A stretch of 64,000 nucleotides of DNA from positions 124,001 to 188,000 of the forward strand of contig JANYCZ010000011.1 in assembly GCA_025360015.1 (NCBI GenBank). The letters run 5' to 3'. Positions within the stretch are counted from its first letter, which is position 1, and every line of letters begins with the position of its first letter. This document shows positions 45,795-52,159 of this stretch, piece after piece. This DNA is from Verrucomicrobiota bacterium (GTDB taxonomy: Bacteria > Verrucomicrobiota > Verrucomicrobiia > Verrucomicrobiales > Verrucomicrobiaceae). The position numbers and the translations under genes were made by a program. The notes under the pieces were generated by a model. That model was not told where the DNA came from and searched no databases. It was given only the letters and a program-made list of their open reading frames with translations.

Positions 45795-46286
45795 ATGCCT
45801 GCTACCCTCCGCTCTGCCACGCTCGCCGACCTCCCGGCTATCAACGCGATTTACAATCATTACGTCGAGCACAGCACCTGCACTTATCAGACCGTGCCCA
45901 GCACAGAGCAAGAACGGTGCGACTGGTTTGATGCGCATGGCCCGGAGCATCCGGTGATCGTGGCTGAAGAAGAGGGGCAGATCATTGGCTGGGGCTCGCT
46001 GAGCCGCTTTCATCCGCGCCAGGCTTACTGCCATAGCGTGGAGGACTCCGTGTATCTGCATCATGAGCACCAGGGCAAAGGACTTGGCAGCCTGCTGCTC
46101 GGCGAGCTTCTTGAACTCGCCAAAAAAATCGGCCATCACACTGTCCTCGGCGGCATTGATGCCGATCAGGTGGGCAGCATCGCCCTGCACGCCAAATTCG
46201 GCTTCGTCAAAGTTTCGCACCTCAAGGAGGTCGGTCACAAGCACGGACGCTGGCTGGATGTGCTGTGGATGCAGAAGATGCTGTAG
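45795..46286 (+). CDS. GNAT acetyltransferase (phosphinothricin acetyltransferase-like)
   Basis: This is a 163-aa acetyl-CoA-dependent N-acetyltransferase. The fold pattern is clear: LRSATLADLPAINAIYNHYV, then EEEGQIIGWGSL, then the acetyl-CoA motif VYLHHEHQGKGLGSLLLGELL (HQGKGLGS). GFVKVSHLKEVGHKHGRWLD is the PAT-type end. It may act on phosphinothricin-like or amino-acid substrates. Resistance is not proven. Confidence 0.87.
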   Translation: MPATLRSATLADLPAINAIYNHYVEHSTCTYQTVPSTEQERCDWFDAHGPEHPVIVAEEEGQIIGWGSLSRFHPRQAYCHSVEDSVYLHHEHQGKGLGSLLLGELLELAKKIGHHTVLGGIDADQVGSIALHAKFGFVKVSHLKEVGHKHGRWLDVLWMQKML

Positions 46287-46374
46287 CAAAGTTGCCCGCA
46301 ACTGGAGTGTTCCCATGGGCTTGCAGTGCCCAGGTGAGATGTTATGCTCCGGCGTGATCCACTCACCGCCAGCA

Positions 46375-46683
46375 ATGCTCGACCTGCCTTCGCTCAGTGC
46401 GATGGTCCGCCCTGTTTGCCAGCGCCACGCCGTCGCCCGAATGGAGCTGTTCGGATCGCGTGCTAGTGACCAAGCCCACGCGGGAAGCGATTACGATTTC
46501 CTCGTTGAATTCATGCCTCAGGCGAATGCTGGCCTGCTTGAAATGGGAGGACTGAAGGAAGACTTGGAACAGGAACTCGGACATTCCGTCGATTTGCTTA
46601 GCCGCGCCGCTGTGGAGCGCAGCCGCAATCCCTTCCGCCGCCGCTCCATCCTGGCCGCGCCCGTCACCGTGTATGCTCAATGA
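46375..46683 (+). CDS. MntA-family minimal nucleotidyltransferase antitoxin
   Basis: This 102-aa protein has the MNT fold: MELFGSRASDQAHAGSDYDFLVEF with the GSxxx... and DxD (DYD) motif. In HepT/MntA modules the MNT protein AMPylates the HEPN toxin and so switches it off. The start chosen (46375, MLDLPSLSAM) is the first in-frame ATG; 46399 is a less likely alternative. Its end overlaps the HepT start by 11 bases. Confidence 0.85.
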   Translation: MLDLPSLSAMVRPVCQRHAVARMELFGSRASDQAHAGSDYDFLVEFMPQANAGLLEMGGLKEDLEQELGHSVDLLSRAAVERSRNPFRRRSILAAPVTVYAQ

Positions 46684-47035
46684 CAAACAACACGGCCTGC
46701 TTCGGGACATCCTTGACTCTGCTGCCATGATCCGCAGCTACCTCAACGGCGTCTCTCAAACCGCTTTCATGACGAACCCGGAGAAGCAAGATGCAGTACT
46801 GCGCCGTTTTGAAATCATTGGAGAAGCATCAAGCCGCCTCGCCCCAGAAACACAGGCGTTTTTTCCCAGCCTGCCCTTCCGGCAGATGCGGGGTATGCGC
46901 AACATCATTGCTCACGATTACGGTGATGTGGACCTCGACCAAGTCTGGCGCACTGCTTCAGGCAGCGATTTGACGATCTTGATCGCTGCGCTGCAACCCT
47001 TCTTCGACAGTGTCGAAGGGACCTGCGAAATCTGA
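46673..47035 (+). CDS. HepT-family HEPN ribonuclease toxin
   Basis: This is a 120-aa HEPN protein. The catalytic RX4HXY motif appears as RNIIAHDY, so both the ribonuclease residues and the Tyr that MntA AMPylates are present. FEIIGEASSRLA is a conserved family helix. It overlaps the MntA stop by 11 bases, the usual order (antitoxin first). It is almost surely a functional toxin-antitoxin pair. Confidence 0.88.
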   Translation: MLNDKQHGLLRDILDSAAMIRSYLNGVSQTAFMTNPEKQDAVLRRFEIIGEASSRLAPETQAFFPSLPFRQMRGMRNIIAHDYGDVDLDQVWRTASGSDLTILIAALQPFFDSVEGTCEI

Positions 47036-47139: not shown

Positions 47140-48516
47140 ATGCCCAGCGCCCTCGACCAGACGCTTTCCCGCCGCCGATTTCTCGGCGGCACGGCCATGG
47201 GCTTGTCCAGTGTGGCGCTGTCGGATCTGATGGCGGATTCGCGGCCGCATTTTCCGGCGAAGGCGAAGCGAGTGATCTGGCTCTTCATGCATGGCGGGCC
47301 GAGCCATGTGGATTTGTTTGATCCGAAGCCCGAACTCATCCGCCATGCGGGCAAGCCTTTGCCAGACAGCTATGGGGCGGTGGAGACACGGCGCAAGGTC
47401 GCGCAGAATCCGCTGCTCGCGCCGGTGAAAGGCTTTCGCAAGTATGGACAGAGCGGCATCGAGGTCAGTGATTTTCTGCCGCACATGGCGGAGCTGGCGG
47501 ATGAAATGTGCGTCATTCGCAGTTGTCATGGCGACAGTGTGAATCATCCGCAGTCGGTCTATCAGATGAATACGGGCTCCATTCAGATGGGCAAGCCGAG
47601 CATGGGGAGCTGGGTGTCGTATGGTCTCGGCTCTGAAAACGCTGACATGCCTGCGTTTGTCGTGATGCCAGACCCTGGTGGCGGTTTGAAGGGCGGCCCT
47701 CCTTCATGGGGCAGCGGCTACCTGCCCGCCACCTATCAGGGTACCACGATGCGCGCGGGCGGCAGCCCCATCCTGGATCTGCAAAGCCCGCAGAGCGGCG
47801 CACGCCAGCGGGCTACGCTGGATCTCATCCAGCAGATGAATGCGCAGCATCTCGCGCGGCACGCGGCGGACAGCGAACTGGACGCGCGCATCCGCAGCTA
47901 CGAGCTGGCCTTTCGCATGCAGAGCGCCGCGCCGGAGGCGGTGGACATCTCGCGCGAGACGGAGGCGACGAAAAAACTCTACGGCATAGACGACGCAACC
48001 ACGCGCGAGTTTGGCACGCGCTGCTTGCTGGCCCGGCGCATGATCGAGCGCGGCGTGCGTTTTGTGCAGCTTTATTCGGGGGATACGAATGGCTGGGATG
48101 CGCATGAGGATGTGCTGAAGAACCACACCGAATACTGCGCCCGCACTGACAAACCTGTGGCCGGCCTGCTGCGGGATCTGAAGCAGCGGGGCCTGCTGGA
48201 GGACACGCTCGTCATCTGGGGCGGGGAATTTGGCCGCATGCCGATGAGTGAAAAGGGTGTGGGCCGGGATCACAATCCGTGGGGCTTCACCACGGTGCTC
48301 ATGGGGGCGGGTGTGAAGCATGGGCACATCCATGGTGCCACGGATGAGTTTGGCCTGCGTGCCACTCAGGACAAGGTCCACATCCATGACCTCCACGCCA
48401 CGATTCTGCATCTCCTTGGTCTGGATCATGAGAGGCTTACTTTTCGGCTTAATGGCCTGGATCAGAAGCTGACGGGTGTGGAAGGCAGTGATGTGGTGAA
48501 GGGGATTTTGGCATGA
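47140..48516 (+). CDS. DUF1501 (sulfatase-like) exported protein
   Basis: This 458-aa protein carries a Tat signal (SRRRFLGGTAMGLSSVA). Its alkaline-phosphatase-like core has VIWLFMHGGPSHVDLFDPKPEL at the metal site and later GRMPMSEKGVGRDHNPWGFTT. It belongs to the DUF1501 family, abundant in Planctomycetes and Verrucomicrobia and of unknown catalytic role. It is translationally coupled (ATGA) to the DUF1549/DUF1553 gene. In most relatives the DUF1553 gene comes first. Confidence 0.9.
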   Translation: MPSALDQTLSRRRFLGGTAMGLSSVALSDLMADSRPHFPAKAKRVIWLFMHGGPSHVDLFDPKPELIRHAGKPLPDSYGAVETRRKVAQNPLLAPVKGFRKYGQSGIEVSDFLPHMAELADEMCVIRSCHGDSVNHPQSVYQMNTGSIQMGKPSMGSWVSYGLGSENADMPAFVVMPDPGGGLKGGPPSWGSGYLPATYQGTTMRAGGSPILDLQSPQSGARQRATLDLIQQMNAQHLARHAADSELDARIRSYELAFRMQSAAPEAVDISRETEATKKLYGIDDATTREFGTRCLLARRMIERGVRFVQLYSGDTNGWDAHEDVLKNHTEYCARTDKPVAGLLRDLKQRGLLEDTLVIWGGEFGRMPMSEKGVGRDHNPWGFTTVLMGAGVKHGHIHGATDEFGLRATQDKVHIHDLHATILHLLGLDHERLTFRLNGLDQKLTGVEGSDVVKGILA

Positions 48517-50231
48517 AGGCTGAATGTCGAATCATTCAGGTGCTCTTCACTGCATGGCTTTGCGCCGGTCAGGTCCAGGCTGTTTCCATTCACGCTTCTG
48601 CTGATCCTGTGAAAGACGAGAGGCCGATCAAGGCGGAGGACAGGGAGCATTGGGCATTCAAACCGTTGCAAGCTGGGCCCGGAACTCAGGGCATCGACGA
48701 TCTTGCGGGGCATCCATCGCCATCCGCTGATCCTGCCACGCTGATTCGTCGCATCACCTTCGATCTTATCGGGCTGCCGCCGACTCCTGAAGATGCTATC
48801 GCCTTCAAGGTTTCCGCATTGGAATCGGTTGTGGACAAACTGCTCGACTCCCCGCGCTACGGCGAGCACTGGGCGCAGTGGTGGCTGGATCTGGCACGGT
48901 ACGCGGATACGGATGGCTTTGAGTACGACACCGAGCGCAAGCACGCGTGGCAGTACCGCGACTGGGTCATCAGTGCGCTCAACGGCGACATGCCTTTCGA
49001 TGTCTTTGTGCAGCATCAGATCGCGGGGGATTTGATGGGAGATGAAGTGGCCACCGGTTTTCTTTTTTCCTGCCCGGACATGCCGGACATCAACAATCAA
49101 GACGAGCGCCGCCACGTCCTGCTCAATGACATCGCCACCACCGTTGGTGCGGTGGGGCTGGGTCTCACGGTGGGCTGCGCGCAGTGTCACGATCATCCTT
49201 ACGACCCCATCAGCCAGGCTGACTTCTACCGTCTGCGTGCGTTTTTTGACAACACCGTGCTGACTAAAACCAGCAAGCCTCTGGGCCCCGCCGTACGCGT
49301 CTGGACCGAAGGCATCCCCGCCAGCACCGTCTTCGTGCGTGGTGATTTCAAGCGCCCCGGCCCTGAGATTCAGCCCGCGTTTCCTCGGATCTTTGGTAGC
49401 ACGCCGCCCAAGGCTGGTCGGGCGGCACTGGCTGAGTGGCTTGCCAGCAAAGACAACGCGCTCTTCCTCCGCGCCATGGCGAATCGCCTCTGGCAGCAGC
49501 ACTTTGGGAAGCCGCTCGCCGCCATTCCGGGTGACCTCGGTCACCAGGGTGAAGCGCCGACGAATCCTGCGCTGCTTGACTGGCTGGCTGCGGAACTGCC
49601 GCGCCAAAACTGGAGCCTCAAACGGCTGCACAAAGTCATTGTGATGTCGAAGGCTTATCAGCAGAAGACCACCTCCCCAACGCGACTTACGGGCGAAATG
49701 CTGCGCGATGCCATGCTCAGCATCAGCGGGCAGCTCAATCTCAAAACGGGCGGTGCCGGTGTGAAACTGCCGCTGCCCAAGGAGATCAGCAGCACGCTGC
49801 TCAAGAACCAGTCTGAAGTGACCAAGGACGTGAGCGAGCATACCCGTCGCAGCATTTACACCTTCGCCCGGCGCAATCTGCGCAACCCGCTGTTTGAACT
49901 CTTTGATCGTCCGGATGCGCAGATCTCCTGTGCCCGGCGCAATGCCTCCATCACCGCCCCGCAGGCCCTCATGCTGCTCAATTCCGATTTCGCCCATAGC
50001 ATCGCCGCAAAGATTGCCGCGCAATTGAATGAGCAGTATGGCTCTGATGCCACTGCACTCATCACCGCCGCCACCCTGCGCTGTCTCTCCCGCCAGCCCA
50101 CACCGCAGGAGATCGAGATCGGCCAGAAGTTCCTGCAAAAACAAACTGCTCTTACTCTCGGCTTCAGCGAGGCCCTGGCAGATTACTGCCTTGCTTTGCT
50201 GAACTCGAACGAGTTTGTGTATGTGGATTGA
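48513..50231 (+). CDS. DUF1549/DUF1553 protein with a single CxxCH heme motif
   Basis: This is a 572-aa exported protein. A signal peptide (MKAECRIIQVLFTAWLCAGQVQA) precedes a DUF1549 part (LIRRITFDLIGLPPTPED, RYGEHWAQWWLDLARYADTDGFE). CAQCHDHPYDPISQADFY at residues 222-239 contains a CxxCH heme-type motif. DUF1553 follows (AEWLASKDNALFLRAMANRLWQQHFG, SITAPQALMLLNS). The N-terminal cytochrome domain (PSCyt1) found in many relatives is absent. It is coupled to the DUF1501 gene before and to the ExbB-like gene 3 bases after. Confidence 0.88.
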   Translation: MKAECRIIQVLFTAWLCAGQVQAVSIHASADPVKDERPIKAEDREHWAFKPLQAGPGTQGIDDLAGHPSPSADPATLIRRITFDLIGLPPTPEDAIAFKVSALESVVDKLLDSPRYGEHWAQWWLDLARYADTDGFEYDTERKHAWQYRDWVISALNGDMPFDVFVQHQIAGDLMGDEVATGFLFSCPDMPDINNQDERRHVLLNDIATTVGAVGLGLTVGCAQCHDHPYDPISQADFYRLRAFFDNTVLTKTSKPLGPAVRVWTEGIPASTVFVRGDFKRPGPEIQPAFPRIFGSTPPKAGRAALAEWLASKDNALFLRAMANRLWQQHFGKPLAAIPGDLGHQGEAPTNPALLDWLAAELPRQNWSLKRLHKVIVMSKAYQQKTTSPTRLTGEMLRDAMLSISGQLNLKTGGAGVKLPLPKEISSTLLKNQSEVTKDVSEHTRRSIYTFARRNLRNPLFELFDRPDAQISCARRNASITAPQALMLLNSDFAHSIAAKIAAQLNEQYGSDATALITAATLRCLSRQPTPQEIEIGQKFLQKQTALTLGFSEALADYCLALLNSNEFVYVD

Positions 50232-50234
50232 ATC

Positions 50235-50642
50235 ATGAACGAGCCACCCTCGAACAGCGGAGCCTTTATTGCCAAACTCGGCGCCTGGCTTCAACTTGCC
50301 CAGCTCATTGGCTTTGCTGGCACGGTGAACGGCATGATGAAAGCTTTCAGCACCCTCAAAATAAGCGGAGCCAGCGATCCTGAAAAACTCAGCGGAGCCA
50401 TCGGTGAAGTCCTTGTAGCAGCCTTCACCGGCATCGCGGTTTCACTGGTGGGCGTCCTTCTCGTGCTCATCGCCATCACCGTCTGCCGCTACCGCGCCGT
50501 GTGGATGTTCTGGTTCCTGTGCCTCTACGGTGGCCTCATGATCTTCGGTTACTTCTTTCCCTTCGGTTTGTTCTTTTTGATTTATGGGTTGGTTAAGAAG
50601 GAGGAGGTTCTGCGACCGCAGCCCCCCTCCCTGATGGCCTGA
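50235..50642 (+). CDS. Small membrane protein with ExbB/MotA/TolQ-like core
   Basis: This 135-aa membrane protein has three hydrophobic segments. The centre, GFAGTVNGMMKAFSTL then SGAIGEVLVAAFTGIAVSLVG, closely resembles the conserved part of MotA/TolQ/ExbB proton channels (GTVxGMxxAF ... GxIxxALxxTxxGLxVA). It starts 3 bases after the DUF1549 stop. It resembles its neighbour at both ends (GAFIAKLGAWLQ; FPFGLFFLIYGLVKKEE), so the two are likely paralogues. It lacks the long cytoplasmic part of true ExbB, so channel activity is uncertain. Confidence 0.65.
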   Translation: MNEPPSNSGAFIAKLGAWLQLAQLIGFAGTVNGMMKAFSTLKISGASDPEKLSGAIGEVLVAAFTGIAVSLVGVLLVLIAITVCRYRAVWMFWFLCLYGGLMIFGYFFPFGLFFLIYGLVKKEEVLRPQPPSLMA

Positions 50643-50657
50643 AAAAAACGAAAGAGC

Positions 50658-51134
50658 ATGGACTCGACGGAAACATCGTCATCACTACGCGGGTCTTTCA
50701 TGGCCAAGCTGGGGGCTTGGCTCCAGGTGATTCCAGCGCTCGAAATCGCCGCCAAAGTAGTCGGCCTCACACAAGAACTTGCTGCACGCCATACCCTCGG
50801 ATTGGCCCCTTCCACCAGATTCACAGCAATCGATAAGTATGTTTATACTTGCACAACCGTCGCCATGTTGACGGCCATGGTCGGCCTCGTGCTAATTACC
50901 ATTGCGCTCACGGCCTGTCGTTTTCGTGCGAAGTGGCTGTTTGAATTTCTCCGATTCTATGGCGTGCTGATTCTCGGCCTGAACCTTGTGGTGGAATTCG
51001 GGCGATTTAGAATCAATCAATATCTGCCCTTCGGCCTGTTCTTTTTGATCTATGCCTTGGTGAAGAAGGATGAGTTTCTGCCAGTCACCCTAGAAGACAA
51101 TGACCCTTTCAACGGCGACGAGGCCGGCCCGTGA
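50658..51134 (+). CDS. Membrane protein of unknown function, paralogue of the upstream ExbB-like protein
   Basis: This is a 158-aa membrane protein. N-terminal GSFMAKLGAWLQ, the central VGLVLITIALTACRFRAKW and C-terminal LPFGLFFLIYALVKKDE mirror those of the preceding gene, but the middle region (HTLGLAPSTRFTAIDKYVYT) has lost the ExbB core motif. It is 15 bases after the upstream gene. A hairpin ends the transcript region just beyond its stop. Confidence 0.6.
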   Translation: MDSTETSSSLRGSFMAKLGAWLQVIPALEIAAKVVGLTQELAARHTLGLAPSTRFTAIDKYVYTCTTVAMLTAMVGLVLITIALTACRFRAKWLFEFLRFYGVLILGLNLVVEFGRFRINQYLPFGLFFLIYALVKKDEFLPVTLEDNDPFNGDEAGP

Positions 51135-51170: not shown

Positions 51171-51175
51171 ATTGT

Positions 51176-51597
51176 GGATCGGCCCTCATAAGCCGGATTC
51201 TGTGTCCCCGATGCCCTTCGGCACCTGGCTGTGATCATTTATCTGTCAGGCTGATCGCTCAGCCTGCCCCTGCTTGCGCAGTGGAGCGACTATTACCCGG
51301 AGGTATCCATCCCTTGCGGGACTTGCGGCCAGGCGGGCCTTTCTCCTGTTCTGTCTTGCACCGCATGAGGTTTGTCGTGCCCCCTTCCTCGCGGTTGGGG
51401 CGGTGGGCTCTTACCCCGCCGTTTCACCCTTACCCGCGCTTGCGCGCAGGCGGTTTGTTTTCTGTGATACTGTCTGTGACTGCGGCTTGCACCGCAGCCC
51501 CCACACTTTCATGTGGCATGCTGCCCTGTGGTGTCCGGACTTTCCTCTGGCATCTCCGCCTTGCAGCAAAAATGCCAGCGATCACTCCGACCGACCC
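51176..51597 (-). ncRNA. rnpB: RNase P RNA (bacterial type A)
   Basis: This is the catalytic RNA that matures tRNA 5' ends. On the minus strand the conserved GAGGAAAGTCCGGAC lies near the 5' end and ACAGAATCCGGCTTA near the 3' end. The P1 helix pairs GGGTCGGTC (51597-51589) with GGCCGATCC (51184-51176), which sets both ends. The length is about 420 nt. A matching promoter lies directly upstream. Short open frames over this region are not genes. Confidence 0.95.
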
Positions 51598-51603
51598 GCT
51601 GTG

Positions 51604-51712: not shown

Positions 51713-52159
51713 ATGAAACTCCTGCCATTCTTCCTGTTCGCACTCACGCTCAGTGTCTCACTGACTCATGCCGAAGACGCTCCGAAAGGTGCGGGTGCCG
51801 GACAGGGCCGCGAGAAGATGAAGGAGATGATCCTGCAGAAATTTGACGCCAATAAAAACGGTGTGCTGGATCCTGATGAGAAAGCGGCGGCCATGAAGGC
51901 CATGCAGGAGCGCAAAGGCGGCAGTCCCAAGGGGGGAGCGCCTGGAGCCAAAGGCGGTGGCAAGATGCAGGAGATGATCCTGCAAAAGTTTGATGCCAAC
52001 AAAAACGGTATCCTTGATCCCGATGAAAAAGAAGCGGCTAAGAAGGCCTTTCAGGAGCGCACTGGCAAGGGCGGCGGTGCCTCCGGTGTGGGTGGCGCGG
52101 GCGCAGAGGGTGGCAGCAAGTTCCGCCGTCCGCCAGAAGCGCCAAACGGTACCAAGTAG
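51713..52159 (+). CDS. Secreted EF-hand protein with duplicated calcium-binding unit
   Basis: This 148-aa exported protein has a signal peptide (MKLLPFFLFALTLSVSLTHA). Two EF-hand loops follow (DANKNGVLDPDE and DANKNGILDPDE), each in a repeat with EMILQKFDANKNG and a Gly/Lys-rich spacer. The underlying DNA is duplicated over about 70 bases per copy. Loop ligands are D-x-N-x-N-G and a final Glu, so calcium binding is likely. The tail is Gly-rich. A regulatory or structural calcium role is inferred. Confidence 0.85.
   Translation: MKLLPFFLFALTLSVSLTHAEDAPKGAGAGQGREKMKEMILQKFDANKNGVLDPDEKAAAMKAMQERKGGSPKGGAPGAKGGGKMQEMILQKFDANKNGILDPDEKEAAKKAFQERTGKGGGASGVGGAGAEGGSKFRRPPEAPNGTK

Follow-up and report, generated by a model that had tools for sequence, protein, structure and literature searches.

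Small ExbB-like membrane genes of a modular family behind a DUF1501-DUF1549 pair in a Verrucomicrobiota genome

Two small genes, ORF A and ORF B, follow a DUF1501-DUF1549 gene pair in a stretch of 64,000 nucleotides (the window; genome G000, contig C19, positions 124001-188000). At a probability of roughly 0.4, their products would be small inner-membrane accessories of a modular family, acting as an anchor or docking platform and not as a proton channel. Such a role in anchoring or docking is preferred because the ExbB-type core of these proteins is relaxed, orthologues without the core exist, and relatives of the C-terminal module are fused to kinases.

The locus and its gene pair

Four genes on the same strand occupy 47140-51134 of the window. 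The first (47140..48516, +) encodes a DUF1501 protein of 458 amino acids (PF07394, E 1.3e-160) with a Tat-like N-terminus, SRRRFLGG, which scored only 14.2 bits with the NCBIfam TAT signal model (cut-off 16.7). The second (48513..50231, +) encodes a DUF1549/DUF1553 (PSCyt2/PSD1) protein of 572 amino acids (PF07583, E 3.1e-69; PF07587, E 6.4e-71). The heme motif noticed in the first-pass annotation is present in it as a single CxxCH, CAQCH, a putative site for covalent heme. ORF A (xbA; 50235..50642, +) encodes a predicted small membrane protein of 135 amino acids and ORF B (xbB; 50658..51134, +) its tandem paralogue of 158 amino acids, both with the positions, lengths and motifs given by that annotation. 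The DUF1501 and DUF1549 genes share 4 bases, ORF A starts 3 bases behind DUF1549 and ORF B 15 bases behind ORF A, or 426 bases behind DUF1549 (3 and about 425 in the annotation). The four genes appear tight enough for one operon and would then share a single transcript.

With its adjacent DUF1501 and CxxCH-bearing DUF1549/DUF1553 genes, the upstream part of the set is an ordinary DUF1501-PSCyt2/PSD1 pair as found in Planctomycetes and Verrucomicrobia. DUF1501 comes first here, whereas DUF1549 does so at C61, the second locus read in G000. Within this genome of 6.6 Mb, 45 PSCyt2 and 53 DUF1501 matches scored above cut-off, and a small ExbB-like gene stands behind the pair at this locus alone among the 45 PSCyt2 loci; it is therefore no general part of DUF1501/DUF1549 systems. 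A general four-gene DUF1501/DUF1549 system was rejected on the same count (1/45). According to a passage of PMC5615132, PSCyt2 genes usually adjoin a family of unknown genes, function unknown, and a passage of PMC2754498 gives R. baltica 41 of each domain. PMC4452313, in its passage on DUF1501, has the domain without any characterisation and cites Kamneva et al. 2012 on DUF1501 clusters. No literature describing a small ExbB-like gene next to DUF1501/DUF1549 was found in a search that had most subscription papers outside its reach.

An RNase P RNA (51171..51598, -; RF00010, 184 bits) converges on the four genes from outside the set and was found near it in seven of 10 related loci. At 51713-52159 of the window lies the gene of a small secreted protein whose two EF-hand repeats are nearly identical; it is near the set in several relatives too. 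DUF1501 is preceded by two ORFs at 46063-47035, one of which we take to be nucleotidyltransferase-like and the other HEPN-like. Both are present in G041 by tblastn, the second in two frames; in other genomes only parts of them or none were found.

An ExbB core without its motor context

The product of ORF A matched Pfam MotA_ExbB (PF01618) with an E-value of 1.6e-10 and 41.3 bits (cut-off 22.9). The match begins 15 residues from the N-terminus and spans profile positions 49-110 of 127 only, which places it over the predicted TM2-loop-TM3 segment with no room for TM1. A profile of the family aligned without gaps to TolQ chains of solved structures (TolQ 131-187, E 2.2e-5), and residues 22-73 of ORF A (52 residues) are 58% identical to the full-length ExbB at C62 in the same genome. 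The ExbB/TolQ-type core recognised in the first-pass annotation is borne out by these three comparisons. Alignment A1 consists of 15 members picked as core-bearing, every one of which matched MotA_ExbB at E ≤ 1. A dN/dS of 0.17 against G041, together with a gene order that recurs in 13 other genomes, marks ORF A as a conserved coding gene and no chance frame.

The core was placed at residues 24-72 (50304..50450, +). Behind it lies a hairpin foreign to ExbB (about residues 83-125; 50481..50609, +; CRYRAxWMFWFL...PFGLFFLIYxLVKKxE), as judged from hydropathy and from the conservation of its columns in alignments A1 and A5. ORF A resembles the C62 ExbB, a member of the MotA/TolQ/ExbB family, in the TM2-loop-TM3 stretch (GTVxGMMxAF ... 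DPxxLSxAIGEVL). Unlike MotA/TolQ/ExbB proteins, which have about 230-310 residues and a three-TM architecture with TM1 and a cytoplasmic domain, the 135 residues of ORF A hold neither TM1 nor that domain and end in the extra hairpin; ExbD is not adjacent, and the kink prolines and the TM3 Thr are missing. The excerpt of PMC12215075 names as conserved TolQ/ExbB residues a TM2 Thr, a TM3 Thr and two kink prolines. ORF A retains the TM2 Thr (T30), and the other three are replaced. The positions read Gln23 (Pro141), Thr30 (Thr148), Ala63 (Thr181) and Val72 (Pro190) when mapped by the ungapped TolQ alignment and by an offset of three between ExbB and TolQ residue numbers, which we assume.

The same residues were counted in 29 core-bearing relatives, defined as the upper 29 of 58 scored proteins (at least 27.2 bits, a cut placed after seeing the scores). 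The TM2 Thr was present in 27 of them, the TM3 Thr in 20, the first Pro in 13 and the second in one, and T-E-T was intact in nine, including G056, G022b, G034 and G031 of the DUF1501-DUF1549 operon. The 58 consisted of 40 small proteins hand-picked from the ORF A and ORF B searches, with frames resembling full-length ExbB omitted, of ORFs A and B themselves and of 16 further picked proteins.

A proton channel requires a partner carrying the essential Asp. No ExbD match was found on contig C19, the 10 PF02472 matches of the genome all lying elsewhere, and seven of its 10 PF01618 matches adjoin ExbD, those without it being ORF A, C42 and C46. The first-pass annotation had seen membrane-channel-like parts in the set. 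Read as a channel coupled to the pair, they would conduct protons or ions on their own and power a periplasmic redox system formed by DUF1501 and PSCyt2. Genuine ExbB homology, the tight operon and the orthologues with an intact T-E-T, four of them from this very operon, speak for such a channel. It is nevertheless very improbable: ExbD is absent from the contig, TM1 and key residues are missing, the core is relaxed and changes faster than the ends, core-less orthologues sit in the same place, 21 of 35 genomes have the pair without the small gene, and in G046 and G014 the small gene stands apart from or without the pair.

A short subunit that mixes into the ExbB-ExbD motors of the genome, or restrains them, would draw on the 58% identity to the C62 ExbB over the pore helices, and the 10 ExbD matches of the genome could serve it in trans. 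We consider this role improbable, given the changed interface and kink residues and the relaxed core; C62-type ExbB also occurs in genomes where the small gene was not found, so that the data do not link the two.

Structure models of ORF A and ORF B were poor (AlphaFold, mean pLDDT 58.3 and 68.5). Foldseek gave no significant match in the PDB: the best hits of xbA were TolQ chains at ranks 1 and 2, with E-values of 0.88 and 1.7, and none for xbB was below E 6.5. The poor models and the lack of a significant fold match also count against the anchor reading.

Relaxed cores and a modular family

For ORF B, neither Pfam nor NCBIfam gave a match at E ≤ 10. It is a paralogue of ORF A (E 2.9e-18, 42% identity), with identities in 40 of 69 columns of the ends and in six of 49 columns of the core (Fisher p 3.7e-7, for a core boundary at ORF A residues 24-72 that was set after viewing the alignment). 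The second protein does match the first at both ends and has lost the core, as the annotation described; of its proposed relation of both proteins to ExbB/MotA/TolQ, the profile searches upheld the part on ORF A and gave nothing for ORF B in Pfam or NCBIfam. Gene conversion between ORFs A and B as the source of the like ends was rejected, the ends being identical in 40 of 69 columns between ORF B and G041b as well. G041b, in ORF B's place, scored 22.6 bits, against a MotA_ExbB cut-off of 22.9, and ORF B had no match; therefore the second copy appears at two stages of one loss in two related genomes. Besides ORF B, ten core-poor relatives were scanned, G041b among them, and none scored above this cut-off.

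Selection was compared by pN/pS, as plain counts with no rate correction on hand-chosen, non-exhaustive pairs. For the core of ORF A the values were 0.48, 0.58 and 0.42 against G041, G034 and G048, and for its ends 0.09, 0.27 and 0.17; the excess of core replacements against G041 has a Fisher p of 2e-6. As a control, the equivalent 49 codons of full-length C62-type ExbB gave 0.03-0.07 in comparisons with six further genomes of the genus, which are not the three used for ORF A. On these counts the ExbB-like core of ORF A changes faster than its own ends and faster than the core of full-length ExbB; it appears relaxed, yet below 1 and not neutral. The core of ORF B gave 1.15 and 1.27 against G041b and G022c (ends 0.54 and 0.35) and evolves as if neutral. 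To judge from its sequence, ORF B is a duplicate with a core already free to change. Between the core-less copies of G013 and G017, 18 synonymous changes and no others were counted.

Two comparisons departed from this pattern. ORF A and G057, a solo relative with a different C-terminus, share 28 of 49 core residues and 16 of 69 in the ends, a reversed pattern, and no difference between the parts was seen against G061 (25/49 and 28/69). Because of these comparisons, and of the nine in 29 proteins with T-E-T intact, the family is to be seen as one with core only, hairpin only or both, and not merely as a fixed shell. The pN/pS below 1 in the core, the intact T-E-T in 9/29 and the reversed pattern of G057 count against the anchor reading. 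The core is nonetheless the part that evolution releases, and anchors are therefore likelier than new motors.

As read from the alignments, the family is modular, with an N-terminal motif (GxFxAKLGAWLQ), an optional ExbB core (TM2-TM3) and a C-terminal membrane hairpin. ORFs A and B share with hairpin family A5, small membrane proteins of Verrucomicrobia, the N-terminal GxxLAxxGAxLQ and the C-terminal YRAxWxFWFLxxYG...PxGTxxG...RxEF, and differ from its other members in a shorter, PFGLFF form of the hairpin. The A5 profile, which includes both of them as rows, gave them scores of 170.9 and 143.2 bits. Ten core-poor members of the hairpin family were scanned, none of which matched a Pfam or NCBIfam family above cut-off.

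The searches with ORF A and with ORF B covered 68 genomes of family f1. The A5 profile matched 52 of 384 genomes of the class at E ≤ 1e-8, many of these being core-only matches in long frames. Among the matches listed, those reaching the hairpin (profile position 121 or beyond) came, by reading, from 19 genomes, of which 12 belong to six other families. Where the neighbours of solo forms were read, they were mostly unrelated to each other. A one-pattern scan of contigs returned 12 loci, 11 of them judged verrucomicrobial from their titles or from matches to the G genomes and one a full-length ExbB of Trinickia; the viral contigs searched held no relative. One record titled Akkermansia muciniphila (L167) contains a Prosthecobacter-type locus, and its title looks wrong.

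In two proteins, L209 and L224, the hairpin module forms the C-terminus and follows a kinase domain. The first, at L209:5209-6642, is a zinc-ribbon-like Ser/Thr kinase that ends in the module and has a sigma-factor-like gene next to it; the second kinase fusion, at L224, has a weak Wzz match. At L222 the module closes a protein of 372 amino acids, in a neighbourhood that resembles a Bat/von Willebrand operon.

In the anchor reading, the protein would be fixed to the inner membrane by its hairpin and N-terminus, perhaps together with a partner, and the ExbB helices would at most aid self-assembly. Candidates for this partner in the present operon are the exported DUF1501/PSCyt2 pair and a component upstream of that export. 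A broader proposal is put forward tentatively and may well not hold: an undescribed, class-wide family in which ExbB pore helices were joined to a new hairpin, the motor part decayed more than once and the new part is still under selection, giving kinases and exported DUF1501/PSCyt2 systems a membrane anchor.

Gene order across the genus and its meaning

A DUF1549 orthologue (at least 62% identity) was found in 35 of the 48 genomes of the genus, and the small gene follows it in 14 of these 35, that of the window and 13 others. The order DUF1501-DUF1549-small gene is therefore not confined to this genome; the four-gene order asked about in the first-pass annotation recurs only in part, since, of the 12 loci whose downstream sequence was long enough, three (G000, G041 and G022) had a second small copy. 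The sequences of G056 and G017 end too early for this count. In G022 (L070:5298-6686) three small copies stand in tandem, the middle one core-bearing and the outer two core-poor. The distance from the DUF1549 stop to the small-gene start was 3 bases in 14 of 14 loci. The junction looks kept because this holds although the flanks differ in the divergent G018, G017 and G013, where the orthologous position is taken by a gene that shares the ends but lacks the ExbB core (core scores 1.5-1.8 bits).

In the other 21 genomes, tblastn and profile searches of the fetched flank behind DUF1549 found no small gene. Remains of ORF A were detected in three of them (G021, G037 and G027), as first codons 2-5 bases past the DUF1549 stop that beat all 200 shuffles, which keep 2-base blocks and not strict dinucleotide content; the small gene was therefore once present there and then lost. 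No remains were found behind DUF1549 in the other 18. One DUF1549 orthologue (L153, G016), with an in-frame stop and its 5' part missing, is a decaying member of a pair. On the DUF1549 tree the presence label takes nine changes, of which well-supported branches force at least four, and a count this low was reached by 39 of 500 shuffled labels; the label is therefore weakly clustered. A core-less small gene adjoins the same sulfatase in G046, which has its DUF1549 orthologue on another contig, and in G014, where no DUF1549 orthologue was matched at E ≤ 1e-100 and the region preceding the small gene, when searched for remnants of the pair, gave nothing above shuffles. The gene order is real but loose. 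With the pair lacking the small gene in 21 of 35 genomes, the case for the DUF1501/DUF1549 pair as its partner is weak.

This looseness bears on the possibility that the small gene is a mere passenger, a fast-moving solo membrane gene with a chance seat behind the pair and a function not tied to it. The mostly unrelated neighbours elsewhere, the retention in 14 of 35 orthologous loci with remains in three more, the scattered label and the small genes of G046 and G014 without a nearby pair all agree with such a passenger; the 3-base gap in every one of the 14 loci, divergent ones included, does not, and we regard it as somewhat unlikely.

No new motor is revealed by these genes. Short ORFs like ORF A pass the MotA_ExbB cut-off and would be labelled 'proton channel', a label that can mislead where the motor part is the least constrained or is gone with the gene still in place. 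If the anchor reading is true, the hairpin shared with kinases would be a handle on the DUF1501/PSCyt2 genes, which occur in dozens of copies per genome and have no known function.
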